The translations under genes and the position numbers were made by a program. A stretch of 64,000 bases of DNA from Heterotrichella gracilis (lineage: Eukaryota; Sar; Xanthophyceae; Tribonematales; Xanthonemataceae). This document shows, piece after piece, positions 29,901 to 51,372 of this stretch. Numbering within the stretch: the first letter of the stretch is position 1; every line of letters begins with the position of its first letter. The DNA lies in the NCBI GenBank assembly GCA_032358255.1, contig JAULBX010025275.1:186001-250000 (forward strand), written 5' to 3'. The notes under the pieces were generated by a model. The model did no database searches and was not told where the DNA came from. It was given only the letters and a program-made list of their open reading frames with translations.

Positions 29901-32465
29901 CGCTGCGCAGCGTTTGGGTTAGGGTGCATGGTAGGGTTTACTTTGGTAGGGCCTGCGCTCTGTAGGGTCAAGGGTAGGAGTTTTGCTACTGCTCCCCCCT
30001 CCTCACATGTTCCCTGAAGGCCCTTGCAGATTCCACTATATATGGGATTGATTAGGGGTCCAGGGCTTCATTGCCAGGAGACCTACACGTTGACACTAAA
30101 CCCCAAACCCTGAACCGGCAGGAGTAAACTGACCCTTCCCTCCCTTTCTCCCCCCAGGTGTACAGGGGCCTGCTGGACGGCTCAAGGGCCTGTGCCGTGA
30201 AGGTCCTTGCCGACCCCATTACAAGCAGCGCTGAGCGGCAAGCAGTGGAGCGGGAGGTGGCTCTGCTAGGGGGGTGCAGGAGTGAGCACATTGTGCAGGT
30301 GAGGAGGCAACCCTAAACCCTCATCTCAATATGAAGTTGGTTAATTCGTGTGTATTACTGATGCTGGGTGTGCAGGAGTGAGCGAATTGTGCAGGTGAGA
30401 GAGCAACCCTAAACCATAAACTACATACAAGAATGCTTATGTAGGACTGTATCAAATGATCCTGGGGGTGCAGGAGTGAGCACATTGTGCAGGCGAGGGG
30501 GCATTGCAATCTCCGCAATTCTCCCGCAGATTTCATCAATACGAATAAACCCTCAACCTCTTTGCCTGCATTTCCTTGGCGTGTGCTTCCAGAAACAGCG
30601 CAGCCTACAGCTCGCCACAAAGCCCTAAACCCGCATTTTTTGCGTGCAGTTTCTTGGCATGTGCTTCCAGAGGCAGTGCACCCCACATTGGAAACCCTAA
30701 GAGCTGGCCACAAAACCCTAAATCCCGCCCTTTGCCTGCAGTTTCTGGGCGTGTGCTTCCAGAAGCAGTGTACCCTGATCGTGACTGAGCTCATGGAGGG
30801 GGGGAACCTGTACTGCGCAATAGGGGAGGGAACCAGGGAGGTCATGGGGTGGTATAACAGGTGAGGGCGGAGGGGGTGGGCGCGCACCCTTTGGAGGTTG
30901 TTCATGTGCGTGAAGTTTGCAATCTGCAAAGTTTTCTTCATGGGTGCACACATTTGCCTGATAGGTTACCCGTTTGCGCACATATCTCGCTTCAACTGTG
31001 GGACGCGGGCGAGGTCATGCACCGACTGCGCCTAATCTTGTCAGGGTCCCTACTGAGATAATCCAACCACCCATCCACTAACTGCACACATGTTGCAACC
31101 GTTGGACCCCATGCCCTGTTGTGAGATGTGGCCCTGGTGTGCTTGCAGGGGGTGGCGCATTGCGTTGGATGTGGCTCGGGGCCTGCACTACCTCCACCAG
31201 CGAAATGTGGCGCATTTGGACGTTAAGAGCCCAAATGTGCTACTAGGAGCCAACGGGGAAGCCAAGGTAAGGGCACAATTCGTTGCGCAAAAGGCCAGAT
31301 GCTGTACTTTCCCTTGATACCTCAGTTGATAGAGGCAGTGACCATATGCCAGGCTGCAGTGCTCACCTCTTTACCCAAATATTGATGCTTGAAACCCCAC
31401 AAAACCCCAAACAAAACCCTACCCGCAGTTCGCCAAGGTGGGCGGGCGCGTGTGCAGCACACCCTCAGGGCTGTCAAATACCCTAATTCAAACCCTGACC
31501 AGAACCCTAATTGCAGGTCGCCGACGTTGGCGTCGCGCGCGTGCTGCACACCCTATCCGAGACGGGGTCCGCCGCCAGCTCAAACAGCCCGGCAGGCACA
31601 TGGGCGTGGATGGCACCCGAGATGGTGTTGGGCACCGGAGTTACCTGCAAGGCTGACGTGTACAGCTACGGGGTGCTGCTGTGGGAGATTGTGACGGGGG
31701 AGCGGCCGCGCAGGGGCCAGCTGCGGATGCCCAGGTGGGTGCTGGTGTTTTTAGGGGGTATTTGGGAGGGTTTTGGGAGGGTTTTGCTGCTGTGGGAGAT
31801 TGTGACGGGGGAGGTGTAGGGGGCATGCTGAAAGTGCCATCCTGAGATGACCACCCACTCAACATATTCAACATGCCACTGACACCCTACCCTTGCCTGT
31901 TTGCCACCGCTTGCAGCACCCCTTTGTGAGAATTTCCCTTGCGCTTTGCCATGATTGCTGCCCACCCTCCGTTGCCAACGCATTGTGACCCCCTTTGCAG
32001 CGCCCCCTTTGAGTGCCCCCGCTTGCCGTGCCGTTGCCGCACCCTCCCCTGTTTTCCCCCTTGCAATATCCTGCTCTGAACCCATCCCCTCCCCCCCTTT
32101 GCAGTGCGCCATTTGAGTGCCCTTTGGCCATCGCCAGCCTCATCACGCGGTGCATGAAGGGTGACCCCACCCAGCGCCCCTCCATGGATGACGTCATCGC
32201 AACCCTACGGGAGGAGCAGCCACAGCCGGAACAGCACCTCGACCATCCCAGGGAGTCGGGAGAGTGGGATGTCGCCATAGTTGCCGACCCTCAGCAGGTT
32301 TTTTTGGACCTGGTGCAGCAGGGGCCGAGCTCTGCGGATTTTCAGCCGATTGAGGAGAGCCTGCGCGTGTACTCCATGGATGACAGTCTGCTGAGCCTTG
32401 GGGACTCGGTGGCGTTCAGCGGGTATGGGCCGGGGCAGGACTGGGTGGACGAGCAGTGGAGCTGA
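26987..32465 (+). CDS. Receptor-like TKL protein kinase (signal peptide, ectodomain, TM, kinase)
   Basis: Exons 26987-27088, 27165-27567, 28505-28793, 29275-29890, 30158-30298, 30742-30860, 31149-31266, 31517-31734 and 32105-32465 sum to 2367 nt, 788 residues; every junction keeps frame. Residues 1-34 are a signal peptide (core ALLLHALLALLVASILPA). About 134 ectodomain residues follow, with six cysteines and no recognised fold. A hydrophobic segment lies at about 200-223 (WLMLAMSTWHAAMLLAASW). A long Pro/Ser juxtamembrane region leads to the kinase from about 460: GRGGFATVYRG, CAVKVL, VTELMEGGNL, catalytic loop HLDVKSPNVLL, ADVGVAR (DVG for DFG), WMAPEMV, YSYGVLLWEIVTGE, DPTQRPSMDDV. The HxD and DVG variants recur in algal TKL kinases (from memory) and in the globin kinase next door. 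The borders of the second and third exons are the least certain part. Confidence 0.85.
29081..29274 (+). repeat. Two tandem 97-bp copies of the exon 4 start in kinase 2
   Basis: 29081-29177 and 29178-29274 are equal-length direct repeats. Each begins with a copy of the exon start (GATGAYCRCGTGGCGCAA) after CTGCAG and ends in CCCTTAGCCC and CCTGAACCCTAAAC. The real exon follows directly at 29275. Confidence 0.93.
30275..30500 (+). repeat. Three copies of the exon 5 donor region in kinase 2
   Basis: GGTGCAGGAGTGAGCACATT plus a GT/GC donor occurs at the real exon end (to 30298) and again ending near 30393 and 30492. CCCTAAACC lies after the first two. Confidence 0.88.
30575..30765 (+). repeat. 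Three copies of the exon 6 acceptor region in kinase 2
   Basis: TTTGCCTGCAG-type acceptors followed by FLGVCFQ-coding sequence occur near 30567-30605 and 30640-30685, then at the true exon (30742). AAACCCTAAA lies between copies. Confidence 0.88.
31905..32130 (+). repeat. Copies of the last-exon acceptor in kinase 2
   Basis: CTTTGCAGCGCCCCCTTTGAG (about 31995) and a shorter CTTGCAGCACCCCTTT (about 31912) precede the true acceptor and SAPFECPLA-coding start at 32105. Confidence 0.82.
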
Positions 32466-35078
32466 CCCTTGAGGGTGTTTGATCAGGGCTGATCAAACAT
32501 GATCATATTCGATCAGGGCAGTAACACATGAACATGGCGGTGTTATTTACCTGGTGGGGGAGTAGGCGGAGGGCAGGGGGACATATTCTGCTTGCTGAAG
32601 GCAGTGGTGGGGGGCTCCTGCAATTGCCCATTGGCCACCTATGGGTTGTGGTTGCCAGGTGCGTGGGCGCCCTAACTGGCATTTTCACAGTGGACTGTGC
32701 CATGGTTGTCCTCTTCTGATTGGGGTTTCCATGGTATGGTTCTCTGGGTGCGACACATCGGCAGCCAATGTCGCCACAGTATTCTCTGCGTTCGAGCACA
32801 GCAGACAGTCCGGAGACCGAGTCTCTCCAGTGTGCAGTGTCACTTTGCAATGTTGCGTATGCTTATCTTTTGGAAATAAATGTTGCCGCCATTTTGAATG
32901 GCAAGAAGCTAGTCCATTCTTGAGCCTGCAGTATTTCAAGGACCGCCCCCCAAGTGATGAGGGAGCTCAAGGCCATATGGATATTTTAATGTTTGGCAAC
33001 CATTGTTCGGCACTTTTTTAGCTGGTTTATCTCTTTTATACTGCATTCAATTATCATTGCACCTGGCCATGTGTTTTCCTTCAGCGTGTCCTTAAAACAG
33101 TGTTTTCCTTCGAAGGTGATCACTTGTTGCCACAGGTCAACCCTGGCATCCACACCATCAATCATGATGGGTCCACAAGTCACGTTTTTCCGCCGCGGTA
33201 ACGTTTCCACTGCTTGTTGTTTTCCAGTACGCCCTTCCATTTTGGCTCCAGTGCTGTCCGAGTGAACCTTTCTGAAGCGAGAGCATGATTTCTTTCATGA
33301 TAAGGCATTCAATTTGGCCCGCCAGCATCTTCTTCTACGCCGTGACGGGCCATCATGCGCATTAAATTTACCAGGCCCGGGGGTTACACGTGCACCCCGT
33401 GCCAGAATCTGGACGGGCTACCACGGCGGCCCGGGCCATGGCCAATTGCAATTAGTCCTCCAGTGGACCACCCAAGCTTGATATGAGAGAAATGTTTCAG
33501 TTCTGAATGGCCTTTGAGTGGGACTCCCTTAGGGTCTATGAACGAATGATTTAGCTCGACTTGATCAATGGTACAACGTGACTCCAATCATTGAAAAGTC
33601 AATGGTGACATGTCATTGATGATCATTTGATTCAGCTGTAACATTACAACTTGCCAGAAGTTTCCTATCCCATCATTGGAAATCTATCCAACAGTTGCTG
33701 AATGGTCATGTCACCAACAGTTTACTTGGAAGACTTGAAATTACTGGAAGTCTTAGACCTGGCCCAGTCCTGGGCCACCGTGCGACACCATATACCGATT
33801 CCCACCCGGGGGGGGGATCGGTAGGGGCCCTGGAGCTGTACGGTAAGTACAAAAAATATGCCATTGGCGCCGTTCCGAAAACATACCCACACCTTCAACC
33901 TGGAGGGATTATTGCAACTTGCTTGATTGGAAATGGTGCTCAGAGCACTAAACATGTGACAAACGCAAAACGCTGCTGGACTTGAGGACAGCGTCATGGC
34001 AACTACTCTCAATAAAACTTGTGCATATCCATACTTGAAAACTAGGTTATGCATACTATTAGTCTAATGTAACTGCAGTACGTACACACAACAATTTTAA
34101 AGCAAAGGCCTATCACTACATAGGTGCAACAGGCCACCCAAAACGGGGGGAACAAGGTATATGTAATGGGATGCTACGTAGCATGTACATGTAATGGGAT
34201 GCTACTGGGGACGCATATCTGTGGTGTATTGCTAACCACACACTCAACATGCCATACATTCCGCAAGATCACACTACACCTTGAATCAAATTGTGGCAGT
34301 GCATTGCATTGTCATTGTATGCCATATGTACGCTCACGCCTCCGCTAGCATTTGGATATAACTAAGCGTCATTTTGCAAGCAATCCAGAATCTTGAGCTG
34401 GATTCCATTCTGGCAGCGCACACCCCATGGCACCCATGCAGCCCCAACAGAGCTGAATCAGAAACACAAATAGCAAACTGGGATGTGACTAGCACCTGAT
34501 GGGTTCTGCTAGCAGCCATACAAAAGGGCTGCTGCTACAATGGCTGTTGATAGCATTGGTACTGAGGATCCGTACTGAAAGCAACTGAAAGCAACCCACA
34601 CGCTGGCAAATGCACCCCCCAAAACAATGACGATAGTTATTCAGTAAAACGCTGGTCGCTCAGTAAAACGTAGGAGCTCGCGCCCGGCTGCGGCCCAGTA
34701 GCCACAGCTGATACACTCAAACCTAAACCCTAAAACCCCGCCACCAGTCCTCTCCAATTTGCTGATGCACTGCTGTATCCTCACACCCGGTCATTGCTGC
34801 GAGGCACTCCGAAAAGTGGGAAGTGCCACCTCCCCGAATAGAGTTATGGAGACGGACCCCATGGTTCATCATCAATCATTCGTCAGTCGCGAAATCCGCC
34901 TGCTCCTGGTCTGTTGGTCCACTCCCCTTGGGCGCCCCCAGGCTGGATTATGAACACCCTAAACCCTAACCCCAACCCATCAAGAGTGGATTCACAGCCG
35001 CACTTTGTTCTCCTTGGCAACCTCCAGGCTGGATGAATAATACCCTAAAACCCTAACCCCCAAACCCTGAGCGAGGGT
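32466..35078. other. Convergent spacer between kinase 2 and the globin kinase
   Basis: Tail-to-tail spacer. AATAAA at about 32875 is a candidate poly(A) signal for kinase 2. Around 34990-35040 is an eroded copy of the globin kinase's final codons (EVAKENKVRL-like on the minus strand) beside CCCTAAAACCCTAACCCC. No gene is supported. Confidence 0.5.
32477..32498. repeat. Near-palindrome 12 nt after the kinase 2 stop
   Basis: Ten-base arms (GTTTGATCAG / CTGATCAAAC) are separated by GG. It lies in the presumed 3' UTR, and a third GATCA cluster follows at about 32499-32516. It may form a 3'-end hairpin. Confidence 0.75.
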
Positions 35079-35110
35079 TCACAGCCGCACTTCGTTCTCC
35101 TTGGCAAACT
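34900..35110 (-). repeat. Decayed copies of the globin kinase last-exon end
   Basis: The true end (35079-35110) is followed downstream on the minus strand by a copy at about 34990-35035, and a shorter relic near 34950. Each is attached to CCCTAAACCCTAACCCC. Confidence 0.82.
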
Positions 35111-38100
35111 CCAGGCTAGTCGAAACCTCCTGGAGGTAGCCCAGCCACTCCTTGGGTGAGGACCCATTGGCGCCATATAACTGGTCCCCATCCCCGGCGC
35201 TGTCGGTCCCTGGGACCGCCCGCGGGGTGGACGGGGATGGCCCGGTGTTGGCGCCTGGTGCGACCGAATCAGCGTCTGGGGGGTTTAAGCTCCCCACCGG
35301 GCTGGAATTTCCTGATAGGAAGGGCGAGGGGTGGCGGCTGGTGACGGTGGGGCGCCCTGTGGGGTGGGGGGGATGGTTGGCGTCAGATGGTGGATGGATA
35401 CTTTGAGCGCCCCTGTGGGAGCCTTGGGGATAAGCTAGGGTTTGCGTAGATTTTGGGTCATGGCCATGGGTTGGCAACGCAGGCTGAGCAAGTGTACAGG
35501 AGTGGTCAGCTGATGGAGCAGAAATGAACAGGGTCCAGGGTTTAGGGTTTTGAGGGTCAAAAGCGGGGTACCAGGTTCACAGTAGCACCTGCCGGTCTTA
35601 GATGCAGATTTAAGGCTCGCCCACCCAGCAGAATTTTAAGGTTTAGGGTTAAGGGTCTATGGATAGGGGTTTTATGTCAATGTTTAGGGTTTTGGGATGT
35701 CCATGCGGGCGCCTCAGAGCCAGCTTCCTGGCTGGCAGTCGCCACACAAACGGGGTTTAGGGTCAGGCATAGGGTTTCAAATAATTGTTTAGGGTTTAGG
35801 GTTTGAGAAGTACCTCCTCCTGGTGTCTCATGTCCAGCTTCCTTGCTGCCAGCTGGACCCAGCCCAGGGAGAGCTACCCTGTTGGCTGAGCTGGCAGGTT
35901 CCCCCCCTTCCACCCTCGCACGCCGAGCCTTACTCCCCTTGGCCCCCCCTCCCCTCCCCTTGCGCTGCACGTTATCCCCTCCCCTCCCCTCCCCACTACC
36001 GCTCCCCTCCCCCCTGCGGCGGGTCTGCAGGGTGGTTGCAAAGGGCGAGGGCAGGAGGGGAGGGAAGCTCCCCGCCACCTCCTCCACCTTCCCCCCCTTG
36101 CTGCCCCACAGCTCCGAGCAGTTCCTCAGGCTCTCCGCGTATTGTGCTGCCACCTTTCTCAAATCCCCGCCCCCGGCGTGGCTGTCCCCGGTGTTGTCTT
36201 CGGAGACGGTTTCCAGGGACAGGGAGGTGTTTCCCGCAATCCCCGTGGAGAAAAGCGAGTCCCCGGTGTTGCTCTCCCCCTCCCAGGGATTGACATTCGG
36301 CCCTCCCCCCTTGGCCACGGATTCAGCGACCAAAGCAGCCTGAGCCCGCATGGCCTCCAAGTACCCCTCTGTACTCTCGGTGCTTCGGCGGCTGTGGGCG
36401 GCTGTGGGCGGGGCGGTGGGGGAGGGGGCGGGGGGAGGGGGCAAGCTTTCCCACCCCCCGTTCCCATAGGGGCTGACTGTGAACGACGCCACTGGCGGCA
36501 TGGCTGTGGCTCTGGTTGTTGCTGTGGGTGGGGACGGGGGTGGCGCCGACACCGGTGGGGGTTTGCTGTTTGCGCGCGAAAACGTGCAGCTTGATGCCGG
36601 CAGTTCCATGGAGGCTGCAGCGCCCGCTCCGGAGAACATGCAGCCCCCGGCTTGTGGTGGGGGGCCCACGGGTGCGGAGTCCGCACGCGCAAACATGCAC
36701 CCGCCGGACGGTGCTGCAGCTGTGGGTGGGGCTGTGGGTGGTGGCGCCACATCCAGGGGGGGTGGGAAGGTGGTGTCTGAAAAGGGGCACGCGGCAGCCG
36801 CAGTAAAGGGGGTGAACCCTGCGCTAGGCGAACCACTGCGCTGCTGGTCCAAGGGGCGGTATTCCCCGCCCCCTTGACGAGGGGAGAAAAAGCCCGCTCC
36901 ATCGGTGGGGGTGGAGGGGGGTGGGGGGTAGGGTGCGGGCCCCCGCCCCCACTCATCCGCATTCTGGCTGTTGGTCCGGCTGGTGAGGGGTGGCGAGGGT
37001 GGCGGGTTGGGGGTGGGGGTGCCCGGCGGCGGGGCTTGGGGGAATGCGCCCTTGAGGGTGCGCACATTTTCCAGCACCTTTTCGATCAGGTCCTCCGGGG
37101 CCTGGTGCGTCCTGTGAGTAGGGAGGGAAGGGGGTAAATAGATCGGTATATTGGAGGGAAAATGCCTGGTAGTGACTACCAACCCTGTAGGGTTTCACTC
37201 ATGTCAGCTACAGCCGCCCCACGCCCTGTTTTAGGGTTTAGGCTCCATATAATAGAGTTTTGTAATTTGTACCCTGAACATACCTGAGCGCCTTCTCCAG
37301 GTGCTGCTCGAATGCCTGGTTTAGGGTTTATGATTCACACAGTAGGGTTTGTATGTACCCCAAACCACCTCAGCGCCTTTTCCAGGTGCCTCTCGAATGC
37401 CTGGCAGTGCGTCACGTTGAGCCCCTTACGGTTAAGGGTTCACACACTAGGATTTTGGATTTTGTACCTGAGCGCCTTCTCCAGATGCCTCTCGAATGCC
37501 TGGCAGTGCGTCACGTTGAGCCCCTTAGGGTTTAGGGTTCATACACTAGGGTTTTGTATTTTGTACCTGAGCGCCTTCTCCAGGTGCCTCTCGAATGCCT
37601 GGCAGTGCGTCACGTTGAGCCCCTTAGGGTTTAGGGTTCATACACTAGGGTTTTGTATTTTGTACCTGAGCGCCTTCTCCAGGTGCCTCTCGAATGCCTG
37701 GTAGTGCGTCACATGAAGCGCCTTTGCCCTGATGATGGGGCAGTGCAGCTGCGCAACATCCTTGGCCCCGTTGTACAGACCCGGGCCCTCAAAGAGGTAG
37801 CCAAGCAGCTCCGTCTGCAGGGGTATAACGTGGTTGGGGTTTAGGGTTTGCATTGCGGGGTGAGGGGATTCGTGCAAAAGTCATATGCAGGAATGTTGGT
37901 GTAAAACATTGTGTGGCCATACGAAAGCAAAATTCGTTCATTATTCAGGTAGACTTGCACCGCACTCCGTTTGGATGCACAAGTATGCACACACACATTG
38001 ATATGTGCATTCAAAACACGGAAGCTGAACCCCTTGGTACTACATGCATCATGACACATGATGTATGCCGATGACACCATCTCTCCCCCATATATATACC

Positions 38101-41100
38101 CATCGCCAATGCACCCACCCGCATCGCCGTGAATTTGCCCAGGTCCTCGCTCTTGGAGGCCTGGAAAAAGGCCCCCAGGTGGGGGTCCGCCCAGATGTAG
38201 TCGTACAGGGTGTCGATAATGCGCCCCACCGCTGGCATGCCCCCCAATCTGTGGATGATGTTGGTGTCCTCTGGGAAAATGTGCTCCATGGTGGCCAGAT
38301 TCGCCAGCACCTCCCGCATGACCCCTGGGTCCACGTTGTACGACCTGGGGATAGAAAAAACGCCACTAATGATTCTGTAAAAAATGTGCTCCATAGTTGC
38401 CAGATTGGCAAGCACCTCCCACATCGCCCCCGGGTCCACGTTGTACGACCTGGGGATGGCACACCATCATCTTTGGGATTTATGAAAATCTGTTGGTTTG
38501 GTGTATCGCCTGAGAATAGTTGCAGCGTGCCCAGGGTGTGGCATTGCCAGGCGGGAGTGCAGACTGTGACCGGCAACCCTAAACCCAAGATGGGGCCTTA
38601 CTGGAGGTCCACGACTCATAAACCTTGAGCCCTAAATCCTAGATGAGGCCTCACAGGAAATCAACACTTCATACCCTACCCCACCTCACCCCACCCCACC
38701 CCACTCCCCACCTGAGCGCCCCCTCCAGGTGCCCCGCAAAGGCCCTGTAGTGCCTGCGGTTGAGCCCCCTTGCCTTGATGATGGGCTGGTGCAGCTTCAC
38801 CACGTCCTTGGCACCAAGGTAGTTCTGGGGCCCCTCAAAGAGGTAGCCAACCAGCTCGCTCTGCAGCAGGAGGGGAGGGTTTTAGGGTTCAGGGTTTAGG
38901 GACTAGGGATATGATGTTAGGGTTTTGGGCCCCTCAAAAGAGGTAGCCAACCAGCTCGCTCTGCAGCAGGAGGGAGGGTTTAGGTTCGTAGGCATTAGGG
39001 TTTTTGCGGTAGGGGTTTCGGTTCGTAGCCAACCAGCTCGCTCTGCAGTAGGGGGGATGGGTCGCGGGAGCAAGGTCTAGGGATATGGTCTTAGGGTTTT
39101 AAATCCCTCGAAGAAGAAGCCAACCAGCTGGCTCTGCAGCAGGAGGGGAGGGTGTAGGGTGCAGGGACTAGGGATGTGGTCTTAGAATTTTGGGTCCCTC
39201 AAAAGTATTAGTCCCTCTGCAGCACTGCTGTTGGTCAGGGCTAGGTTTGCTCAGGGTTAATTAGGCTGGGTTACAAGTGTGCGGATAGGCTTGAGGCCCT
39301 TCACAGCTCACCCAGTCGCTGCACTTGCCACAACCCACAGGAATGGACCTACCCGCATGGCCAGGAACTGCCTGCGGTTTGTGGTTGTGAAGAAGTGCGC
39401 AATGATGGCATCGTCCCAAATGCGGTGGTCCATTGCGTCGGTCACGTGCGAGGCATGTGTGCTCAACTCAAGGGTTTTGGGTGTAGGCAATGTGTTCACA
39501 ACCATGCACTTGCCACAACCTTAGGACTGCACCTACCCGCATGGCCAGAAACTGCTTAGGGTTGGTGGTCGTGAAGAAGTGTGCGATGGTGGGGTCCTCC
39601 CAAATGCGGTCGTACATGGCGTTGACCACGTGGGAGGCGTCGATGGGCGAGTTGAGGCGGGTGAGTAGGCCAGCCTCCTCTGAAACCACGGGGAAAAGCT
39701 CCTCCAGGGTTGACATGTTGTCGATCACTGTGGCGATCACGTCATCCGAGGTGTCGTAGTCCCTGGAAGCAAGCAGGAAATGGGTGGGGATTAGAAATGG
39801 CCCTGGGATAGACCCCAGGGAACAGCTCCTCCAGGGTGGACATGTTATTGATCACTGTGGCGATCACGTCATCCGAGGTGTCGTAGTCCCTGGGAGAATG
39901 ATACAACAAAGTGATCAGTTTTTGAATTTGATCAGTTTTCACCCAATTACCCTAGACCCTACACGTACCTCAGCGCCGACTCCAGGTGCAGCGTGAACGC
40001 ACACCCTGCGTAGGGTTTCACCCACATAAACCCTAACCCTAGCCGCACCTCAGCGCCTCCTCCAGGTGCTGCGTGAACGCCTTGTAGTGGCTCCTGTTCA
40101 ACCCCTTGGCTTTGATGATGCGCGCATGGATTTGGGCCACATCCTTGGCGCCCGAGTAGCTCTGGGGCCCCTCAAAGAGGTAGCCAATCAGCTCCGTCTG
40201 CAGCAAGAGGGTGTTCGATTAGGGTTTAGGGTCCCTCCAAAGTGGCAGCCAATCAGCTCCGCATGCAGCAAGAGGGGGTGGTGGGTTTTGGGTGCAGGGA
40301 CCAGGGATGTGGTCTGAGGGTTTAGGGTCCCTCTAATGGGTAGCCAATCAGCTGACCAGCCTGCAGGTAGCCGAGTAGTATGTGAGGTTTAGGGTTTAGG
40401 GTTGGCTGTGTGTGGTGTGCAGGGTTTACAATGGGATGTGACAAGGGTTCCAATCACGGCAAACCAAGGTGCTTGCAGACCCTAGAATGTGGACGTACCC
40501 CAGAATCACATAACCAAGGTGTACCACATTATAGGGTCTACACCTGGCTCAGAATCAAGGGCATGCACAGGCAAGTGGTTGTTTTAGGGTTTAGGGTTTA
40601 GGCTAACCGCACCCGATTGTACTAACAAGCATACCCAGCTATACCCTAGATCGTTTTATCATTTTACGCACCTACAATAGTTACTACCTTACTCACCCGC
40701 ATGGCCATGAACTTCCTGGGGTCCGCCGAGATGGATGTCAGGAAGAAATTCCCCAGCAGGGGGTCGGCCCAAATGTGGTCGTAGAGGGAGTCGATGATGC
40801 GCCCCGCGCCCACCATGCCCCCCACCTTGACAAGGGGTAGCAGCTCCTTGGGGCACTCAGGAAAGATGGCCTCCAAGGCCTGGATGTTGGTGAGCACGGT
40901 GTCGCAAATGTCCTCCTCAGCCCCCTCCGACCTGCAAAAGGGGAGTAACTTGTCGGTCAGTCAATTAATGGTCTTGCAGGGGGTGTAAAGTGAGTGATCC
41001 GGGGGTTGTACGTGTGCGACAAGGGGTAAAAGCTCCTTGGCGGGCTCCGTGAAAATGGCCTAAACCTTAAACCCTAAACCTCCAGGGCCTGGATGTTGGT

Positions 41101-44100
41101 GAGCACGGTGTCGCAAATGTCCTCCTCAGCACCCTCCGACCTGCAAGGGGGTGTAATTAGCCGTTCAGTCAATGAATGGTCTTGCGGGGAGTGTAAAGTG
41201 AGTATTCCACCCTACACCATGAATCCCACACCCTTGGACCTTGCAACGCACACCCTAGACCCTGCATTTAAACCCTAGACCTTAAACCCCGAAACACCTA
41301 CTTGAGGGCCTCCTTGAGGTGCTTGACCACCAGCCAGCACTGGTAAACCCTAGACCCTGAACCCTAGACCCCGAACCCCACACCACCTACTTGAGCGCCT
41401 CCTTGAGGTGCTTGACGACCAGGCGGTAGTGCGAGCGGTTGAGGCCGTGCTTTGCCACCAGTGGCGCGTGGATGGCCTCCATGCTCAGCCCCTTCCAGAA
41501 CTGGGGGCCCTCAAGAAGGAAGGCCATCACGTCGGACTGCAAAAGACACAGGCAGGAACACAGTCGAAAACCCCAACTTGAAGGATTAGATGACTCCATG
41601 CAGTTTACTTAAACTACAAAATGAGCAACGGGCGCCACACTGGGGCCCTTCCAGAGCTGGGGCCACTCAGAGAGGAAGGCCATCACATCAAACTGCACAC
41701 GCACTGAATCCATTCAAAAACCTGTCCTTGGCCCATTAAGAGCCCCAGCCTACATCGCAAGTACTCTATCCACCCCCATTTTGAAGCTTTTCAAGGTGTG
41801 TGGTCATGGTGCTATAATGCATATTTGGAATCCCAGCATACATGTTTGGAACCCCCAGCATACATGTAGGTTTCACGCTCCCCAAAGTGAAACCCCAGCA
41901 CTCCACATACCCACATGGTAAGGTATTTGTCGGGTCCTGTGGCCATGGAAGTAGGGCGCCAGCGGGGGTCATTGTGTATTGCCCGGTACATGCATCGGGT
42001 TGAAAATTCTCCTTTACACCCCAACCGACAAGCAAGGTTTAGCACACCAGCCCTTTCCAAGCTAAACCTCCCAGCCCACTTCCACCCACCCGCATGGTGA
42101 GGTATTTCTCGGGGTCGGTGGTCATGGTGGCATGAAAGTAGGGCGCCAAGCGGGGGTCGTTGTGGATCGCCCGGTACATGGTGTCGATCACCCTCCCGGC
42201 CTCAGCCAGGCTCCCCGCTCGCCGCAGGGTGGCGCTGGGTGGGGGCTGCAGGGCGTCGCCGAGGGTGGGCTCTGGGAATGTGTACGCGCAGGCCTGCAGG
42301 TTGGCGAGCGTGGCGCGGATGCTGGCCTGCGGGCAGGGTCGCAGGGTTTGTTAGGGTATTTTCTTTGAATTTCAAGGCAATTTTGGGGTCTGCACCAGAC
42401 ACATCCCTGCACCAGATACATCTGCACTCAAGCCTCAGCCCACCACCACCGCCACCACCGCCGTCGCCACCACCACCACCACCACCGCCGCCGCCACCGC
42501 CACCCCGCCACCACCACCACGCCACACGCACCTCGCTGCACTTGTGGGTGAGCATAGACTCCTCCAGCAGGCCCGCAAACACCTCAAAGTGCCTGCGGTT
42601 CATGCCCCGGGACCTCACCAGCCCTGCGTGCACCTGCTCCATGGCCACCCGCTTGGTGTTGCCCTGGCCAGGGCCCTCAAAGAGCCACGACATGATCTCG
42701 GTCTGGGGAGGGGAGCAAAGGGGTCGGAAAATGGTGTGATCTTGGTGTGGGAGGGGTGTAAGCCAATTACTTTGATTCTCTAACGGGCTGTGTGCAATAT
42801 GTGTAACATGTGGGGAAGGAGCGGGACCACGTGTTCAGGTTTTCATTCATTGTTCGGGAGCACACAGCCCTGCATGCAACCTATTAGATAGCACCGCCGG
42901 CTTGGTGCTGCCCTGGCCGGGGCCCTCAAAGAGCCACGACATGATTTTGGTCTGGGGAGGGGAGCAGAGGAGCCGGAAGAAGGGGGTCAGAGATATATTT
43001 TGGAAAGGGAGCAAAGGGGTTGGAAGAAGGTTCTGGCACATGTGCGGTGAACGTTTCTCCCTTGTAACTCTTCTACTACACTGCACATGCTGTGGTGCCT
43101 GTGGTCCAAGTTTAATGCTGGAGGATGACATCCTTCATGTTCACAAGGAAATTTGTGCAAGAAACAAGCTTATGGATAGGGCCTCATTCGTCCCCAAAAC
43201 CCACTGAACAACAACAATCCTTGTCTGAACTTCAAACCCAGGACAGCAGCCCTGCAGTGCGCATCCCCACCTTAAGGCACAGGAACATGCATGGATCGGA
43301 CTACGGGTTTAGGGTTCCAAGTACGGGGTCACAATGCCATCCCCACCTTTTGCCGCAGGAAGATGCGGGGGTCGGACTTCGACTTTTTGAAGAACTTTGC
43401 AAGGCTTGCGTCTGACCAGATGAGGTCATAGAGGGTGTCCATGATGCGGCTGGCCTCAACAAAGCCGCCAACCTGCAACCACAAAAACACACATGGTTTG
43501 CTTTTGCCTAAGCAGGACCCTGAAACCCTAATGAAGGGTTTATAATGCATGCCCATGATGCGGCTGGCCTCAACAAAGCCGCCAACCTGCAGAAAAACAC
43601 GTCACACACGGATTATACCAGCCTTAGCAGGACCCTGAAACCCTGTATAAGGGTTCATACAGCTGGCCTGGCCTCCCACAAAGCTGCCTCCTGCGATACA
43701 ACAGCACAGGTAAGCCCTAGCACTACCCTAAAACCCTACCCAAGGTTGTACGCAGCGTCTCATCCATGCTCAACTCTGCATTGCACGCCTTGGCTAACTC
43801 CTAGTGTCCACATTACTCCTAGTGTCCAAAGTTAGGCAGGCCGCAGTACAACCAACGCAAGGTGTTGTAGTATGTCAGTAGACGTTATCACCTGGCCTCA
43901 TCTCCCCATCACCGCCACTCCACCCACCCACCCACCCCCTACCTGCTCCATGAGTATTGGCACCCCCTTGCGCGTCGACCCATCCATGTCTGCCTGCATT
44001 GCCCTAGGGAACATGGACTTGAGGGTGGACATGTTATGAAGGACCTTGGAGGAGACGTCCTGCAGGGGAGGAAACCATGATTAAGGGTATGCACAGTGTC

Positions 44101-47100
44101 CATTGCACGTCATTTACACATATAATGTTCCCCTTGAGGCCAAAATGCACATTGAGGCCAAGATGCACCCCCCTTTCCCCCTCCCCCACCCCTCACCTCT
44201 GGCACGTCGCTCTCCCCAAGCACCCTCGCCACATGCCCCGCGCACACGTCAAAGTGGCGGCGCGTAAGCCCAAAGCGTGCGATGGTCTCAGTCACCCGAT
44301 CCACGATGTCGCGCCGCTGCAGCAGGTGAGAAAGGTGCCTAATTAGGGTCTACTGCTAGAGCAAAACTCTGATAGGGTTTTCTGTTGGCCTGAACTTCCC
44401 CAAAGGGAAAGTAAGGGGCGAAGGGGTAGATTTGTTTTGGTCAGTTCCCCTTCAGACTTGGTCAGACCCCTTCAACCAGCCACACCGCACACTCCAGCCA
44501 GGAAAGAGCAGCCAGGTATGGGGGCGTGCACAAGAGAGGGGGGACACACAAAAGAGGGGATGGGTATTCCGCGCACCTGGAAGGCATGCGGCCCCTTACA
44601 ACAGGTACACCCCACACTATAACCTGAGAAAGGGCAACGTGCCCAAATGAAGGGTAAAACATGCAGGCAAAGGTGGGTGGGCGGGTATTGCACCCACCTG
44701 GAAGGCATGCGGCCCCTCAAACAGGTATGCCGCGCACTCCAGCTTGAGACTGGACAGGGTGAGCGGGTCAATGTCGTCAAACAGGCGGGTCAGCTCGGGA
44801 TCCCCAACCACCATGCGCACCACCGAGTCCATGAGGAAGTGGCGCCAGTGCTGGGTGCGGCCGGTGTTGGTGGTGCGCCACACGTCGGCCTGTGTTGGGG
44901 ATACATTAGCTTTGAGCGAGGGTCAGCGGAGAATGCGTGGAAGGGCAAGTGTGTGGAACCCCACAGTAGGGTGAGGCGCTGGCTACAATGCCTAGGACAG
45001 GGCGATGGCATGCCCAGCTATTGTTGTTGGTTACTCACCATGTATTCTTGTGAAACCACGTGGCAGGGCACCACATGTAAACCCATCGTAAGGTAAGACC
45101 ATCCCGCCAAGCGCACCTGGTTCGACTGGGGATGCCTGGGGACCCCGCTGCCCTTCCTCGACATCTCCCCCGAGGACCCCGGCCTGGTCCCCGGGGATGC
45201 CGACCCCGCTGGGCTCTTCCCCGTGTGAAAAGATATGGTCGTTGCCCCCAAGCTTGGGGTTGAGCTCAGGGTCGAGGTGCCCTGCACGTGCGCACGCAGC
45301 CTGCCACTTGTCGTGATGCGGAGGCCGCCAGGTGGCGGCGCCTCTCCGGGCCCACGGTTGGTCTGCAGGTGGGAAGATGGGATGAAGTCTTGTCCAGAAC
45401 TGTATGATGGGGAGTGGCACAGGCATCTGTAGCCCTCCCCCCCCACGGCAAATAGGCAAATGGTGATCAAGGCTTTCAAGAGCTCCTTGAAGTGAACGCC
45501 CAACCGGAGCCAGCAAGCGCACGCTTGCGAATGCAGACATGGGATCCTAAACCTAGACCCTCAAAACCCTAAACCCTCGAAACCCACCTGCAGGAATGGC
45601 TTGATGACGTCCATGATAGCGGCTGCGCAGGGGCGCTTGGTGGGGTCCGAGGACATGCATGAAGCTACCAGGAAGGCGATCTCGGCGGGGCAGTCCTGAG
45701 GGACCCTGCGGAGTGGGGTGTTGTACACATGAGTGACGGGTGGACCTATTCTAGTCCCCCTGGCGCATGCCCTGGTCCCTTCCTGTTTCACCAAATTGCC
45801 ATGCTCACCCCCCTGGGCCCCACACGCATGCATATGCACCATCATACAATACCCCAGGAATGCCAATTGGGCAAACCATCCTGACTCGGTTTATTCTGCC
45901 ATGTTAAACCCCCACCTGAGCGGCCGCATCGCCCCCCTGCGCGCCACCTCGGCGGTGCAAATCTCCCACAGCAGCACCCCATAGGAGTAGATGTCAACCT
46001 TTTCCGACACGCGCTTGCCCTGCACGATCTCGGGGGCCATGTAGGCAAAGGTGCCAACCTTGCCCGTCACCTGCAAGGGGGGGAAGAGGACCACTGATGG
46101 TGAACTAGGGGGGAAGCGATGGTCACATGCATGAAAAAGCACATGGTACAGCCCCCCGCATGTGCCACATGGCGTTGCCTACAGGTGCATGTCTCCGTAA
46201 GATACAGCACCGCTTTGCCTGGGAGATTCGCACGACTTTACCCAACCTGAGTCGGCCCATAGGTTACCGTGACATCGGCCATTCTGCCCACTACCCTCCG
46301 GTGCAAACCACATCTACCCCTGCCAAGTGCAGCCACAGCACCCCCAGGGCTGTCACAAAACACACAGCACCAACGCATCTCTGAAAGTGTTGCTGATTTG
46401 GTATCTGCGGTTGCTGCCTGCAGTAGGGTCCCATGGGAATCCCGGGATGGGGGTTTCCATACCTGTGACATCTGCACCATTTGGGCCAGGCCCACGTCCG
46501 CGATTTTGGCCCCGTTGGCGGCAGAGAGGAGCACATTTGCGGTCTTGAGGTCGAAATGTATGACCCTCCTGGTGTGCAGGAAATGTAGGCCCAGCGCCAC
46601 CTCCAGCGCAATGCGGCTGCCCCTGCAATTAGGGTTAGTTGCAGGGTCAGCGTTTGCAGCAGGGTTTAGGGTTAGTTGCAGGGTCAGCGTTTGCAGCAGG
46701 GTTTAGGGTTAGTTGCAGGGTCAGCGTCTGCAGCAGGGTTTAGGGTTTGTGGCAGGGCGTAGGGTGTGTTGCAAGGGTGCATTGCAGGGTCTAGGGTTTG
46801 CAGCAGGATTTAGGGCTTGTCGTTGCAAGGATTATGGATAGGTGCAGAAGTGGGGCCTGGCACAATGCTAATATTTCACCCCGTCGTTCAATAACCTGAC
46901 TTGACATTGCAAGTACACAAAGTACTTGGTTTGTACCAGGTTACCACTGCATCAACACCTCTTGAGCACTCCTCTTAACTAGTGAACCACTGCCCCTTCA
47001 TTTGAAACCCTGAACCTTAACACTAAATCCTGGCTTAGGGTGATCCTGTCAACCGATATAGGATAGAGTCCTTCCCTAAACCCCAACCCCAACCCCTAAA

Positions 47101-48921
47101 CCCCAGATCCCCAACCCTACCTGTTGAACCACTGCCCCTCGCCCCCAGCCAGCGCCTTCCTCAAATCCCCACTCTCCATAAGCTCGGTCACCATCATCAC
47201 ACTGCCATCGTCCGCCACCGCCGCACCCAGAAACTGCACGATGTAGGGGCTCTGCAGGGTCCTCAGGAATGCAATCTCCCTGACCGCGCTCAGGTCGATG
47301 CCGGAGGCGCTGGCTGAGTTTATGACTTTCACAGCGCAGGGGGTTTCGCCGTAGAGGCGGGCGTAGTACACCTGGAGAAAATGGGGTGGTGAGGGGCGGT
47401 GGTGCACACAGCCACTTGCCTCCCAAATCCCCCCTTCCCTCCTGCGTTCACTGTGCCGTACTCTCCAACACACACTCGCTCCCACATCAGCATATAACGA
47501 CCTCAATGTCGCATGCGACAAGCATAAAACACATTGGCCCCCACCCCCACCCACCCACCCAGGAAAGTACCCTAAACCCTTTTAACCCTAAACAGGGTTC
47601 CCCTCCCCTCCTGCGCTCACCGTGCCGTACGCCCCCTCCCCCAGCACAAACTCGCTCCCATCAGGGTGCTTGATGAACTCAATGTCGCATGGGTCAAGCA
47701 CCGCCTGCTGGGACCAATCAAGGGCAGCACTGGCCTTGCGCAGCTCCTGCAGGTCGGGAAGGGAAACCCTAGTGAGACCATAGTAGAACCCTAGTGGAAA
47801 CACAGCGATACCCTAATACAACCCTGGTAACACCCTAGTCGACCCTATCAAGGGCAGCGCAGGCCTTGCACAGCTCGTGCAGGCCAGGAAATGAACGTAG
47901 CGAGAAACCCCCTAAAGCTAGCCTGCATGCCCGACCACCCTAGAATCTCCACCTGTAACGTTGACAGCTTCTTTTTGGAACCCCTCCCCCACCCACCCGC
48001 CCATGTTGCTCCCAATGCCCACCTCACCCAGGTTCTGGCACATGGTGATCCCTCTTCCCCTGCGCACGCTGTCCCCATGGTACCCTAAACCCTAAATCCC
48101 AAACCCTACACCCACCTCACTCAGGCGCTGCGACATGGCGTTGCCCCTCCCCCTGCGCGTGCTGGGCCCCATGATACCCCCCCCTGCATGCTCCACACCA
48201 GCCATCCCCACGGATTCAGGCCCAGATACATGGGAGCCGTGGGAGACGCCCCCCGAGCTGCCCACTGAGCCCCCGCCATCCCCATCCCGGTCCGCAAGGT
48301 ACCCCCGCCGCGAGCCGCCACTTGTCACGCTGGGGCCGCTCGGGTGGTTCTGGCTGTGGGAGCGGTGCGAGTGGTCGAGGATGGGTGGGAAGAGGTCATC
48401 TGGGTCTCCGTCTAGGGTATTCGCCGCACGCCGACCTGCATGGTGAAGGGTTGTTTGCGTCAGCGGGTACGCTATTGGATGAAAGCGGGTTGGCGCAAGG
48501 TATGGCCACCCTGTCCTTGGGTTCTGCAACACTCTGTTCAGCGTCTCAAGAAATCCATTTCCTTGCTTGACCACCACTGCAAATCCCAGCTTGTGCCCTT
48601 ATCAGAGCGCCAACGCGCACCCAAATTTGGTGCATTTCCTCACAGAATCCGGCGCATCACCATGTCCATTATGCACATTAGTAAGTTCAAATTCGTTGGA
48701 GGTAACCATTCACTTGTTGGTGTTTAAAATCCAGAATTCAGAATCCAGAATTTTGAAAGGTAGTAATGTGCCTCACCTTGCAATCCCCTCCTCCGCCCCT
48801 GTGGCCTGCTTCTTGACCACACCACACATGCAGCGGCTGTGGATGCCACCACCACCCCCGCCGCAATCACGCCTCCGATGAAAAACGAGGAGTGGGAGTG
48901 TTGCTGGGCTGGGGAAGTCAT
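35079..48921 (-). CDS. Membrane-anchored TKL kinase fused to six tandem truncated-hemoglobin domains
   Basis: Twenty-three minus-strand exons: 48921-48777, 48435-48116, 47746-47621, 47371-47121, 46622-46463, 46070-45916, 45705-45588, 45362-45039, 44889-44698, 44316-44197, 44059-43943, 43472-43347, 42702-42532, 42326-42090, 41536-41391, 40931-40697, 40197-40049, 39762-39537, 38860-38712, 38344-38119, 37814-37666, 37111-35814, 35356-35079. The sum is 5418 nt, 1805 residues. A short N terminus and TM (about 14-37, FFIGGVIAAGVVVAS) are followed by Arg-rich residues, so the rest faces the cytosol. The kinase (about 175-425) has GEGAYGTVY, CAVKV, HFDLKTANVLL, ADVGLAQ and YMAPEI. Six globin units span about 534-1281. 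A 520-residue Pro/Ser/Gly-rich tail ends in EFAKENEVRL. Predicted role is haem-based gas or redox sensing coupled to phosphorylation (inference). The 5' start and the exon 8 donor are the softest points. Confidence 0.88.
35676..35840 (-). repeat. Duplicate of the exon 22 donor region
   Basis: The true exon end encodes SKEAGHETPGGG. About 100 bp further on, an in-frame copy encodes SQEAGSEAPAW. The two are separated by CCCTAAACCCTAAAC. Confidence 0.8.
37282..37735 (-). repeat. Five-copy array of the unit 6 donor exon edge
   Basis: Copies begin near 37282, 37366, 37464, 37563 and 37662 (real). The last three are 99 bp apart. Each holds the donor, ALR/EKAL-coding sequence and CACGTTGAGCCCC, and most are followed by CCTTAGGGTTTAGGG. 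Confidence 0.93.
37666..38344 (-). other. Globin unit 6
   Basis: Exons 38344-38119 (VLANLATMEHIFPE, RLGGMPAVGRIIDTLYDYIW) and 37814-37666 (GYLFEGPGLYNGAKD, QLHCPII, THYQAF). It carries the canonical LGG...AV start of truncated hemoglobins and is the clearest unit. Confidence 0.9.
38376..38460 (-). repeat. Near-intact copy of the unit 6 exon start
   Basis: Repeats the first 70 or so bases of the exon at 38344, acceptor included, and still reads in frame (LANLATMEHIF). It could act as an alternative acceptor. Confidence 0.88.
38700..39225 (-). repeat. Five versions of the unit 5 second-exon acceptor
   Basis: AGCCAACCAGCTCGCTCTGC occurs at the true edge (about 38846-38862) and near 38945 and 39022. 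More eroded copies lie near 39120 and 39215, with TTTAGGG-type tracts between. Confidence 0.88.
38712..39762 (-). other. Globin unit 5
   Basis: Exons 39762-39537 (VIDNMSTLEELFP, VVNAMYDRIWEDPTIAHFF) and 38860-38712 (GYLFEGPQNYLGAKD, KLHQPII, GLNRRHYRAF). Proximal His candidate present. Confidence 0.88.
39340..39460 (-). repeat. Half-exon duplicate of globin unit 5
   Basis: On the minus strand it encodes ASHVTDAMDHRIWDDAIIAH, then FF, TTTNRRQFLAMR and a GT donor. It parallels the true exon 39762-39537, and the frame is open over the whole copy. Confidence 0.9.
39795..39900 (-). repeat. Upstream copy of the unit 5 first-exon start
   Basis: About 85 bp matches the first part of the exon at 39762 (acceptor, DYDTSDDVIATVI and NNMSTLEELFP on the minus strand). 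It lies just upstream of the true acceptor. Confidence 0.9.
40049..40931 (-). other. Globin unit 4
   Basis: Exons 40931-40697 (VLTNIQALEAIFPE, IIDSLYDHIWADPLLGNFF) and 40197-40049 (GYLFEGPQSYSGAKD, QIHARII, GLNRSHYKAF). Tyr/Phe at the B10 and CD1 positions and a proximal His candidate are all present. Confidence 0.88.
40980..41150 (-). repeat. Copy of the unit 4 first-exon start
   Basis: Near-identical ATGTTGGTGAGCACGGTGTC block and acceptor. The copy is interrupted by CCTTAAACCCTAAACC at about 41063, showing a heptamer insertion inside a duplicate. Confidence 0.9.
41391..42326 (-). other. Globin unit 3
   Basis: Exons 42326-42090 (LANLQACAYTFPEP, VIDTMYRAIHNDPRLAPYF) and 41536-41391 (AFLLEGPQFWKG, EAIHAPLV, GLNRSHYRLV). 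Candidate proximal His in AIHAPLV. Confidence 0.85.
41895..41995 (-). repeat. Copy of the unit 3 first-exon end
   Basis: About 95 bp repeats the exon end at 42090-42190, including the donor, with deletions that break the frame. Confidence 0.88.
42428..42525 (-). repeat. CCACCG/CCACCA microsatellite in a globin kinase intron
   Basis: Imperfect CCACCN repeats about 95 bp long. Sense-strand reading is (GGTGGN)n directly after the donor of exon 13. Confidence 0.9.
42890..42975 (-). repeat. Copy of the unit 2 last-exon start
   Basis: Repeats MSWLFEGPGQG-coding sequence and the acceptor of the exon at 42702, about 250 bp upstream of it in the sense direction. Confidence 0.88.
43240..43700 (-). 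repeat. Copies flanking both ends of the unit 2 middle exon
   Basis: The acceptor side of the exon 43472-43347 recurs at about 43550-43592 and, eroded, at about 43658-43690. The donor side recurs at about 43262-43305. Confidence 0.85.
44197..44889 (-). other. Globin unit 1 (degenerate, no proximal His)
   Basis: Exons 44889-44698 and 44316-44197. Globin-like pattern VVGDPELTRLFDDID, then AAYLFEGPHAF, then GLTRRHFDVCAGHV. The position expected for the proximal His (H in the AHxxL motif of truncated hemoglobins) reads Val in DRVTETI. Probably a non-haem, structural copy. Confidence 0.7.
44470..44760 (-). repeat. Copies of the unit 1 first-exon end
   Basis: The true edge at 44698 (CACCTGGAAGGCATGCGGCC on the plus strand) recurs at 44573-44630. 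A relic lies at about 44478-44505. Confidence 0.85.
45588..47746 (-). other. Kinase domain of the globin kinase
   Basis: Exons 3-7. The P-loop, VAIK-type lysine (CAVKV), HxDLKxxN loop and APE are all intact. HRD arginine is Phe (HFD) and DFG is DVG. The Asp residues required for catalysis and Mg binding are kept, so activity is plausible. Closest in this window is kinase 2 (HLD, DVG). Confidence 0.88.
47440..47900 (-). repeat. Copies flanking both ends of the P-loop exon
   Basis: A donor-side copy lies at about 47448-47522 and an acceptor-side copy at about 47847-47892, around the true exon 47746-47621. The P-loop frame is lost in the copies. Confidence 0.85.
48020..48180 (-). repeat. Copy of the exon 2 donor region
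   Basis: About 60 bp at 48020-48080 repeats the exon end at 48116-48178 (CTGCGACATGG... against CTGGCACATGG...). CCCTAAACCCTAAATCCC lies between. Confidence 0.85.
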
Positions 48922-51372
48922 GACTGCCGCCCCACCCTGCTCAACGGTTGGCTCCCCGCTGCTGAAACCCTACTCAAGGGTTGGTGGCCCCCCGCTGAAA
49001 ACCTGCTCTAGGGTTGGCTCCCGCCGTCGAGTCCAACGGGCTGCCTCCCCTGCCTATCCTTGGCTTCCAATACAGGCTCCAGGCTTTGAGTCCAGATACT
49101 GGCCAGGGATGCCTGCTGCTGCTTGCCGCCCTGGTTGTCAAAATGGACCCCGGATGTTGGATGATGAAACCCTAAACTCTAGGGTGGTTGGCTGTCGTGG
49201 TTGCTGAGCCTGCGAGTATGCTGTGTCCCGTGTTTGGTTCAGTAAGCTTATCCACTAGTGCCAGTGTCGCGCTTTGGATGCTGGTGCTGGGCTGCTCCAA
49301 AAGGGGTTACCTGGAAGCAGGAACAAAGGAGGTCACGCCATGGCTTGACCCATGCATATGTACACAGCTGCAGGTGTGGGCCCACAAGGGTCTTGGGCGG
49401 TGCCACTGGAACAAGTAGGGTCTCACCACACACACACCACACCCCAGGCACACAATGAGCCATGGCAGGGAGTGTAGTTGCCCAGTGCTAGGCACAATTG
49501 GGCAGAAAGGCGCAGGGCAGGCAGCAGGTGTCTGGACAGTGCAAGGCAAGGGCGCAAGAGTGGGTATGTGGGTGGGGAGCCATTGACCACTAATTCCCAG
49601 TGTAGACAAGCGCAGTGGAACGTGGGTGCTCCCACAACCAACCTCTGAATCGGAAAAGATACCTTATCTGGTGTACGCAACGTCAAAGCCCGGCGGCTCG
49701 CGGGCTAGCTAATAACCTCCCCCATGTGCATGGACTGCACCCGCACCCCTATCCCGTGACTTGCACAGCACCACAGTCCTCTCAAACACCCACCAGGCCC
49801 TCTAGGTTTAACTCCAGTACAAAAGACTATGGTCTTGTGAGGAAAAAGCGTGCTTCGAAAGGAGTTTCGCTGTTGTTCGCATCCTTGTCAGACCCAAAAT
49901 TAACACACTACATCTGTACACCTACAGATGTGCACCGGGTCGCCTACGGTAGCCTGCGGCACTGAAGGGCAATGTTCGCTGCGTGGGTCCTAGACGATTC
50001 AACGTCAGAGCTGCCTCGGGAACTTGTGCACCTACAGTTTGCTATTGCAGGGCGTAGCCTTGTGTGGCCCAGGTTGTGCGTGCCACGGCACTTGTCGAGC
50101 TGCAGACCTCGCCTTGTTTCAAACAGGGAGCGGGTGAGGTGGGTACCTTACGTCACAGGCAGGTCTAACGGGGGGACACTCGATTGCCGCTGCACCGCGA
50201 ACTGCCTTCCGCCACCCACCAGCCATCGATAGCGCAAGCCCGTTGCGCGCCATGCCTATTGTGCAGCCCGTGCCAGGTCTGCTAGAATGTTCTTCCAACT
50301 TCACGTTGTGACGTGCACTCCCAGTTGAGCTTTTTGGGGAAAGGACAACCTTCCTTCGAGACTAAACCCTGCTCAGAGAACAGCTCTGCTCTAACTACAA
50401 CTTTGCTATGGAGACGAGCTTTTTCGAAAACAACTGCTGAGAAAAAGGCCAAAAAGTATCTCCCCGTTGCGCATGTGACAGCCCAAAAGTTCCAATTGGG
50501 CCATATGATGACGTAAATTGCAGACGTGGCTGTTGTATTGCACGCCAATTGGCCACTTGATCACATGGCAAGCACATGGCTTTATAATCTATTTAATTTC
50601 ACGGAAGAAAGGTACGAAATATATTTTAATTAATCGTGAGATCATCTTATGACGCCACCTGTACAGCTACTCATTGGTTTACTGTACTTGTCACTTTATG
50701 ACAAGGCTTGAGCGGGACGTCCAGGCTGGTTGACTACTCTATATGACGTGATTTGTGGAAATTGTGACGTCATTGGATCATGATCACGATCATCGGATGG
50801 CGGTATTTAGGCGCATTTTTTGCGAATAGAGAACCCTGTTCGCAATTTAATTTGGCCTCTATCTGCATTACCCCAAACGCTAATGTTCCCAAATGTAAGG
50901 TGGTGTAATGTTGGATTAACCCAAACTGCAGGATGCAGTCTGCATCCCATGCCCCTCGTAAACCTGTGGCCCCGCCGCATGTGGGTACCGGCTAAATATG
51001 CCCGTGATCCTATGGTCCGAATAAAATGCGCATTTCGACCGTCACGAAGCTGCCCTTCGGCGCCATCAGGGTTACGTGGCACTCCGCGCAAAAACACCAG
51101 CCACAAAGGTTTTGACCTGTGCGGAAGTGTGATGCAACCTCTTCAAGCAGACCCCCGTCTCGCAAGGAGTGAACGCATGCAACTGCTAAGGCAACAAAAT
51201 CCGTACCACCGTTGGCCGTAGTCTACAACCTTACAACGTCATTGCCCTGCTACACACCTGCCTGGTACCAGCGACCCTGCAGGTGCATACAGGAGTGGGC
51301 GCCATGTGGGCAACTGCCTCTTGGGAAAGTGCGCACACACGGGTTGCAGGCGTGACCGCTTGAAGGCAGCAC
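48922..51372. other. Divergent spacer between the globin kinase and RB genes
   Basis: Presumed promoter region for both genes. At about 48937-49030 a GGTTGGCTCCCCGCTG block occurs three times with CCCTACTCAAGGG-type sequence between. Elsewhere in the window that pattern marks an exon edge, so a 5' exon of the kinase may lie upstream. The AT-rich stretch at 50500-50830 contains GATCATGATCACGATC-type palindromic clusters. No gene is supported. Confidence 0.45.

Follow-up and report, generated by a model that had tools for sequence, protein, structure and literature searches.

Can a eukaryotic gene place a string of truncated haemoglobins on the same chain as a membrane-anchored protein kinase, and what would such a protein do? 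This question is raised by a gene on the minus strand (48921-35079) of a 64,000-nt stretch of the Heterotrichella gracilis genome (contig JAULBX010025275.1; hereafter the window), which a first-pass annotation had read as a transmembrane tyrosine kinase-like (TKL) kinase followed by six truncated-globin units. We find these parts on one spliced frame, and the six-unit layout recurs in two other genes of this genome. The reading we favor on sequence grounds, with a probability of roughly 0.5, is a membrane-anchored kinase that senses a gas or redox state through haem and has a haem-less globin as its coupling unit.

A single reading frame joins a membrane anchor, a TKL kinase and six truncated globins

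Independent exon-by-exon splicing of the minus-strand frames yields 23 exons in a single open frame, running from an ATG at 48921 to a stop codon at 35079-35081, with GT-AG borders in 22 of 22 introns. The coding length is 5406 nt including the stop, corresponding to 1801 residues. The first-pass annotation had likewise arrived at 23 exons and a single frame; its length of 5418 nt exceeds ours by 12 nt. Its proposed order of a transmembrane segment, a TKL kinase and six truncated-globin units on one chain is borne out by the spliced frame and by matches to the truncated-globin family PF01152.

Exon 1 (48777-48921) carries the start codon (48919-48921) and a predicted N-terminal membrane anchor, a hydrophobic segment at approximately residues 13-35 (48817-48885) with a hydropathy of 2.14 across 19 residues at residue 15. 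A basic stretch follows the anchor, and therefore the kinase and the globin array should be on the cytosolic side. The exact N-terminus is, together with the last exon, the least certain part of the gene model, and an ectodomain may lie upstream of the ATG at 48921. Exon 2 (48116-48435), which has GT-AG borders and keeps the frame, encodes a low-complexity juxtamembrane linker.

The kinase domain (residues 156-425) is encoded by exons 3-7 (45588-47746) and matches PF07714 (PK_Tyr_Ser-Thr, 1.6e-45, residues 189-418) and PF00069 (2e-44). The spliced frame contains the motifs GEGAYGTV, AVKV, HFDLKTANVL, ADVG and MAPE, with the catalytic Lys, Asp and Asn and the Mg-binding Asp of the kinase fold all present. 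The residue before the catalytic Asp in this HFD-type loop is Phe, not Arg, which we take to make the enzyme a non-RD kinase. Its solved relatives include plant CTR1 (2.3e-33, 119.1 bits), MAP3K12, MLK and TAK1; an EGFR chain tops the PDB matches by E-value because two kinase copies are summed, but these score 62.7 and 62.8 bits individually, less than the 119.1 bits of CTR1. By sequence we classify the domain as a TKL kinase (Raf/MLK/CTR1-like) that differs from CTR1/Raf-like and MLK kinases in having HFD and DVG where those have HRD and DFG. To our knowledge, the CTR1/Raf-like and MLK kinases carry no globin.

Exon 8 (45117-45362) encodes an 82-residue linker that splices the kinase in frame to six units of 124-134 residues. 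Scanned with Pfam, as the first-pass annotation had suggested, the translated exons match both the kinase and the Bac_globin (PF01152) models, the latter over the chain at 98.9 bits (3e-28) in five stretches. Scored singly against the curated PF01152 cut-off of 21 bits, four of the six units lie above it. The degenerate unit U1 (43979-44889), with Val at both F8 and B10, and unit U2 (42258-43978), with HisF8, TyrB10 and LysE11, fall below at 18.2 and 13.6 bits. HisF8, TyrB10 and ArgE11 are found in each of units U3 (40844-42257, 22.0 bits), U4 (39675-40843, 21.7 bits), U5 (38260-39674, 24.0 bits) and U6 (37024-38259, 32.0 bits). The solved structures closest to U6 are the Chlamydomonas haemoglobins THB1 (4xdi, 6.7e-10), THB4 (6bme, 3.4e-8) and THB11 (6td7, 7.3e-6). 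Together with TTTAGGG-like repeats, the globin relatives would suggest an affinity to green algae. With several truncated haemoglobin units and a fusion to another domain, the chain is a multidomain truncated haemoglobin.

All six window units match PF01152, and none matches the S-family Protoglobin model at E ≤ 1. No NCBIfam family was found in the three globin units scanned (3/3), and a single search each of phage and viral-contig sequences gave no relative of the globin unit.

The array is followed by a proline-rich, low-complexity tail in open frame that fills the remainder of exon 22 (T1, 35814-37023) and matches no Pfam family; the C-terminal 546-residue segment as a whole has no Pfam family at E ≤ 1. 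Exon 23 (T2, 35079-35422) supplies the end of the tail and the stop codon, and its support consists of the reading frame and GT-AG splice signals.

A family of kinase-globin genes in the genome

We searched the genome (68.5 Mb, 903 contigs) for truncated-globin loci with PF01152, unit U4, the globin of locus C150 and THB1, so that all locus counts are lower bounds. At least 14 loci were found: the window gene (C277), two on C376 (A and B), C150, C749, C272, C413, C427, C106, C270, C161, C141, C556 and C306, the last of which matches PF01152 but none of the globin queries. In 10 of the 14, TKL kinase exons lie upstream on the same strand, with 393-1450 bp between the end of the kinase and the first globin exon. 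The count becomes 9 of 13 if C270, a weak globin match (0.035) accepted partly for its adjoining kinase, is left out. The chance of a kinase on the same strand within 1.5 kb is approximately 0.0015 per globin locus, a rough figure that treats 141 kinase exon matches as separate loci. No kinase was found upstream of the globin within 9.8 kb at C161 or within about 5 kb each at C141, C556 and C306. The globin at C161 (L038 4810-5846) has a canonical pocket.

Genes A and B each encode a kinase followed by six globin units, the first of them degenerate, and the seven further loci encode a kinase with one or two globins. The kinase-globin join thus has support beyond the first-pass annotation, as about 10 genes share it and two other genes share the six-unit layout.

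This recurrence bears on whether the gene model has mis-joined a kinase gene and an adjacent globin-array gene, an explanation we regard as extremely improbable and reject. Frame and phases are unbroken through the 82-residue linker exon, and the U1 frame contains no Met from the preceding stop to the start of the unit. Mis-joining is also hard to square with a kinase-globin order that recurs at 10 of 14 loci against the rough chance of 0.0015 per locus, and with the six-unit layout of both C376 genes.

Six of the 12 units of A and B were scanned on PF01152: three lie above the cut-off, two slightly under it, and unit B_U2 has no match. The globins C150_1 and C749_2 score strongly at 56.4 and 55.4 bits (2/2 scanned), and one C749 globin reaches Protoglobin at 0.042, below the cut-off. 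A globin likeness arising by chance was rejected on the PF01152 scores, the THB structure matches and these scans of other family members.

Paralog B, judged by eye, resembles the window gene in having a short N-terminus with a hydrophobic stretch near it. A hydropathy scan upstream of the kinase at eight other loci gave clear anchor candidates at C150 and C427 and doubtful ones at C272, C413 and C106; no hydrophobic candidate was seen in C749, A and C270, where as elsewhere the upstream sequence is often short. Haem-regulatory-type CP motifs occur inconsistently in the tails and linkers of family members. The motif C-x-F is present four times in the tail of the window gene, once in that of C427 and not at all in the tails of A and B. 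A kinase-like exon (31514-31729; E = 1.1e-11 to the window kinase) is present on the plus strand, opposite to the window gene and some 3.4 kb past its 3' end.

Two haem-pocket residues are invariant in units 2 to 6 and lost from unit 1

To compare the pockets we aligned the 15 units U2-U6 of the three six-unit genes (the window gene, W, with A and B), giving 121 columns filled in at least 13 rows. At a mean pairwise identity of 41.5%, only 6 of the 121 columns are invariant: TyrB10, an Asp (BC), HisF8, a His in helix G, and the Phe-Pro pair after helix H. HisF8 is present in 15 of 15 U2-U6 units and in none of the three U1 units, in agreement with the earlier proposal of a haem histidine in five of the six window units. 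The U1 units have Val, Val and Val at F8 and Val, Cys and Phe at B10, and keep the BC Asp, the helix G His and the Phe of the closing FP motif in 3/3 and its Pro in 2/3. HisF8 and TyrB10 are therefore invariant in U2-U6 and gone in U1, the pattern expected if U2-U6 were under selection to keep haem and U1 had lost it.

Several features of the same units weigh against haem-based sensing. Position E11 is Arg in 12/12 U3-U6 units and Lys in 3/3 U2 units (as it is in 3/3 U1 units), where THB1, THB4 and the globins of C141, C272, C749, C150, C161 and C427 have Gln. LysE10 is gone in 15/15 U2-U6 units. PheE14, to which the THB11 paper (PMC7082302) ascribes high conservation and a haem-shielding role, is replaced in 13/15. 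Of the two CD-corner Phe columns, the first carries another residue in W_U3, A_U2, A_U4, A_U6 and B_U6. The polar distal network of group I 2/2 haemoglobins combines TyrB10 with a polar E7 and/or E11 (PMC7082302); the array units have TyrB10 in 15/15 and an E11 (Arg or Lys) that is polar yet not Gln, with Phe, Tyr or Ile at E7. This altered distal pocket could mean changed or lost haem binding, and because of it ligand behavior is not transferable from THB1. The array units are weak on PF01152 and B_U2 is without any match. Among the seven one- or two-globin members, four (C413, C427, C106 and C270) depart from the canonical pocket: the C427 globin has GlnE10, in that of C413 B10 is Leu and E11 is Lys, and that of C270 is divergent. 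Beyond the pocket, the globins could be enzymes and not sensors, and the coupling of the array to the kinase is something we infer.

The five globins of C150, C749 and C272 have TyrB10, LysE10, GlnE11 and HisF8, a Chlamydomonas-like pocket. In the kinase-globin member at C106 (L041 5401-5568), the proximal F8 position is occupied by Tyr and not His.

The strongest rival to a sensor is a haem-poor scaffold, in which globin folds without useful haem serve interaction or structure and the kinase is controlled otherwise. It would account for the loss of haem residues from unit 1 in all three genes, the unusual distal pocket (Arg/Lys at E11, PheE14 mostly gone), the weak PF01152 scores with none for B_U2, and the Tyr at F8 of C106. 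We nevertheless consider a scaffold unlikely, since no more than six columns are invariant across the 15 units (mean identity 42%), HisF8 and TyrB10 are two of them, and these two are precisely what the degenerate unit has lost. The distal changes could alternatively reflect another ligand of the globin fold, perhaps a small metabolite or linear tetrapyrrole, in a new pocket to which ArgE11 or LysE11 contributes. The uniformity of Arg/Lys at E11 and the loss of LysE10 across the array units of three genes fit this idea, which is very unlikely given that TyrB10 and HisF8 are haem-pocket residues.

A candidate haem-based sensor kinase

The sensor reading takes up features present in the sequence (the spliced frame, the anchor, the kinase residues, the six units, the HisF8/TyrB10 pattern and the same layout in the paralogs) and would add to them a topology, haem occupancy, a ligand, a role for unit 1 and control of the kinase. 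The protein would be a membrane-anchored TKL kinase with a cytosolic tail made up of six group I-like truncated globins in a row, of which units 2-6 would bind haem through HisF8. When a gas (O2, NO or CO) binds or the haem redox state changes, the array would be altered, and the putatively haem-less unit 1, lying between array and kinase, would relay this change to kinase activity.

The globins might instead be tethered enzymes, such as an NO dioxygenase or a nitrite reductase, or a membrane store of O2 or NO, with the kinase answering some other input. Nitrite reduction in vitro is documented for the algal 2/2 haemoglobins THB1, THB2 and THB11 (PMC7082302), and according to a reference title in the same paper THB1 modulates NO levels and nitrate reductase activity. 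We find no reductase family in the chain with Pfam, and the kinase join at 10 of 14 globin loci suggests a signaling role, which leaves tethered enzymes or a gas store quite unlikely.

If the sensor reading is correct, the protein would be a eukaryotic counterpart to the bacterial globin-coupled sensors, built from another globin class. With a kinase joined to most of its detected truncated-globin loci, this genome makes the sensor hypothesis directly testable, as input and output lie on one protein, the haem-less unit provides a built-in control and members with one, two and six globins are available for comparison. A wider reading, which we offer only tentatively, is that about 10 anchored kinases sense gases by fused 2/2 globins, and that three of them grew six-globin arrays, each with a coupler lacking haem and five haem units, the latter with distal pockets re-tuned in concert (Arg/Lys at E11) to give the TKL kinase a multi-haem graded or threshold input.

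Relation to known globins

Each half of this architecture has been published. A 2020 paper (PMC7082302), citing among others Hade et al. 2017, describes 2/2 haemoglobin domains fused to a protein kinase or nitrate reductase as well as chains of several 2/2 haemoglobins; a second paper (PMC5745447) refers to that 2017 work too when it mentions globin fusions and repeats. The published kinase fusions and multi-globin chains resemble the window gene by description. The first-pass annotation knew of no kinase carrying a globin array; such novelty does not hold for fusion or array singly and may hold for the two combined: among the literature matches listed (titles and abstract openings, with most subscription papers outside), none describes a kinase bearing a truncated-globin array. 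The combination of anchor, six units, haem-less first unit and shared distal change was likewise not found in the literature searched.

At least 12 class I 2/2 haemoglobins occur in Chlamydomonas, and work to characterize them is still in its early phase (PMC7082302). THB1, THB4 and THB11 share TyrB10 and HisF8 with the array units and additionally LysE10 and GlnE11 with C150, C749 and C272; they differ in being without a kinase, and the array units differ from them in having Arg/Lys at E11 and no LysE10. THB1 and THB4 are single-domain proteins, and THB3 is without HisF8 (PMC7082302). THB5, compared here by its description, resembles the window gene in having tandem globins on one polypeptide, namely four consecutive 2/2 haemoglobin domains, and is not called a kinase in the available text of that paper (PMC7082302).

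The Allomyces macrogynus chimeric protein similarly carries a eukaryotic group 1 T globin C-terminally in a large chimera, but has a leucine-rich-repeat, ribonuclease-inhibitor-like N-terminus and one globin, with no kinase mentioned in the available text (PMC3287990). Bacterial globin-coupled sensors join a globin to a signaling output domain, a resemblance in proposed working only, and use S-family globins and bacterial outputs (PMC3287990). The window gene combines six C-terminal 2/2 globins with a eukaryotic TKL kinase. In the bacterial sensors the globin is N-terminal and usually single.

Origin of the array and growth of its introns

In the window gene a phase 0 intron lies directly after E11 in 5/5 U2-U6 units, with the U1 intron positioned later. 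The border after E11 is also found in both units of C150, both units of C749 and U2-U6 of A and B; A_U4 and B_U5 have one additional intron each. The helix G-H intron is in phase 0 in C150_1, both C749 units, W U1 and U2, A U2, and B U1 and U2, and in phase 2 in window units U3-U6 and the readable ones among U3-U6 of A and B (the reading leaves out the A U5-U6 acceptor, the B U4-U5 donor and the C150_2 acceptor). A tree of the units recovers single clades for U1 (100/98) and U2 (100/99) and, with less support, U5 (93/91) and U4 (86/77); U3 and U6 form no single clade. From these intron positions, phases and clades, the array is most likely, at least in large part, older than the split of the three six-unit genes, and U3-U6 probably derive from copies of one two-exon module.

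Of the 22 introns, 12 contain same-strand near-copies of exon ends of this gene, most often the end of the flanking exon, with lengths of 30-102 nt and identities of 77-97% (E ≤ 1e-5); examples lie at 37367-37712, 38381-38449, 39353-39454 and 41018-41140. At 37367-37712 there are 3.5 copies of a 99-nt unit made up of an exon end and intron sequence. The introns appear to grow through tandem duplication across exon borders. At 39353-39454, the end of exon G5a recurs as a degenerate second copy in the next intron, with an open frame still ending in AMR followed by GT, and this copy could be an alternative exon. Telomere-type CCCTAAA/TTTAGGG strings, noted by eye, are scattered over the introns and flanks from 34000 to 49200.

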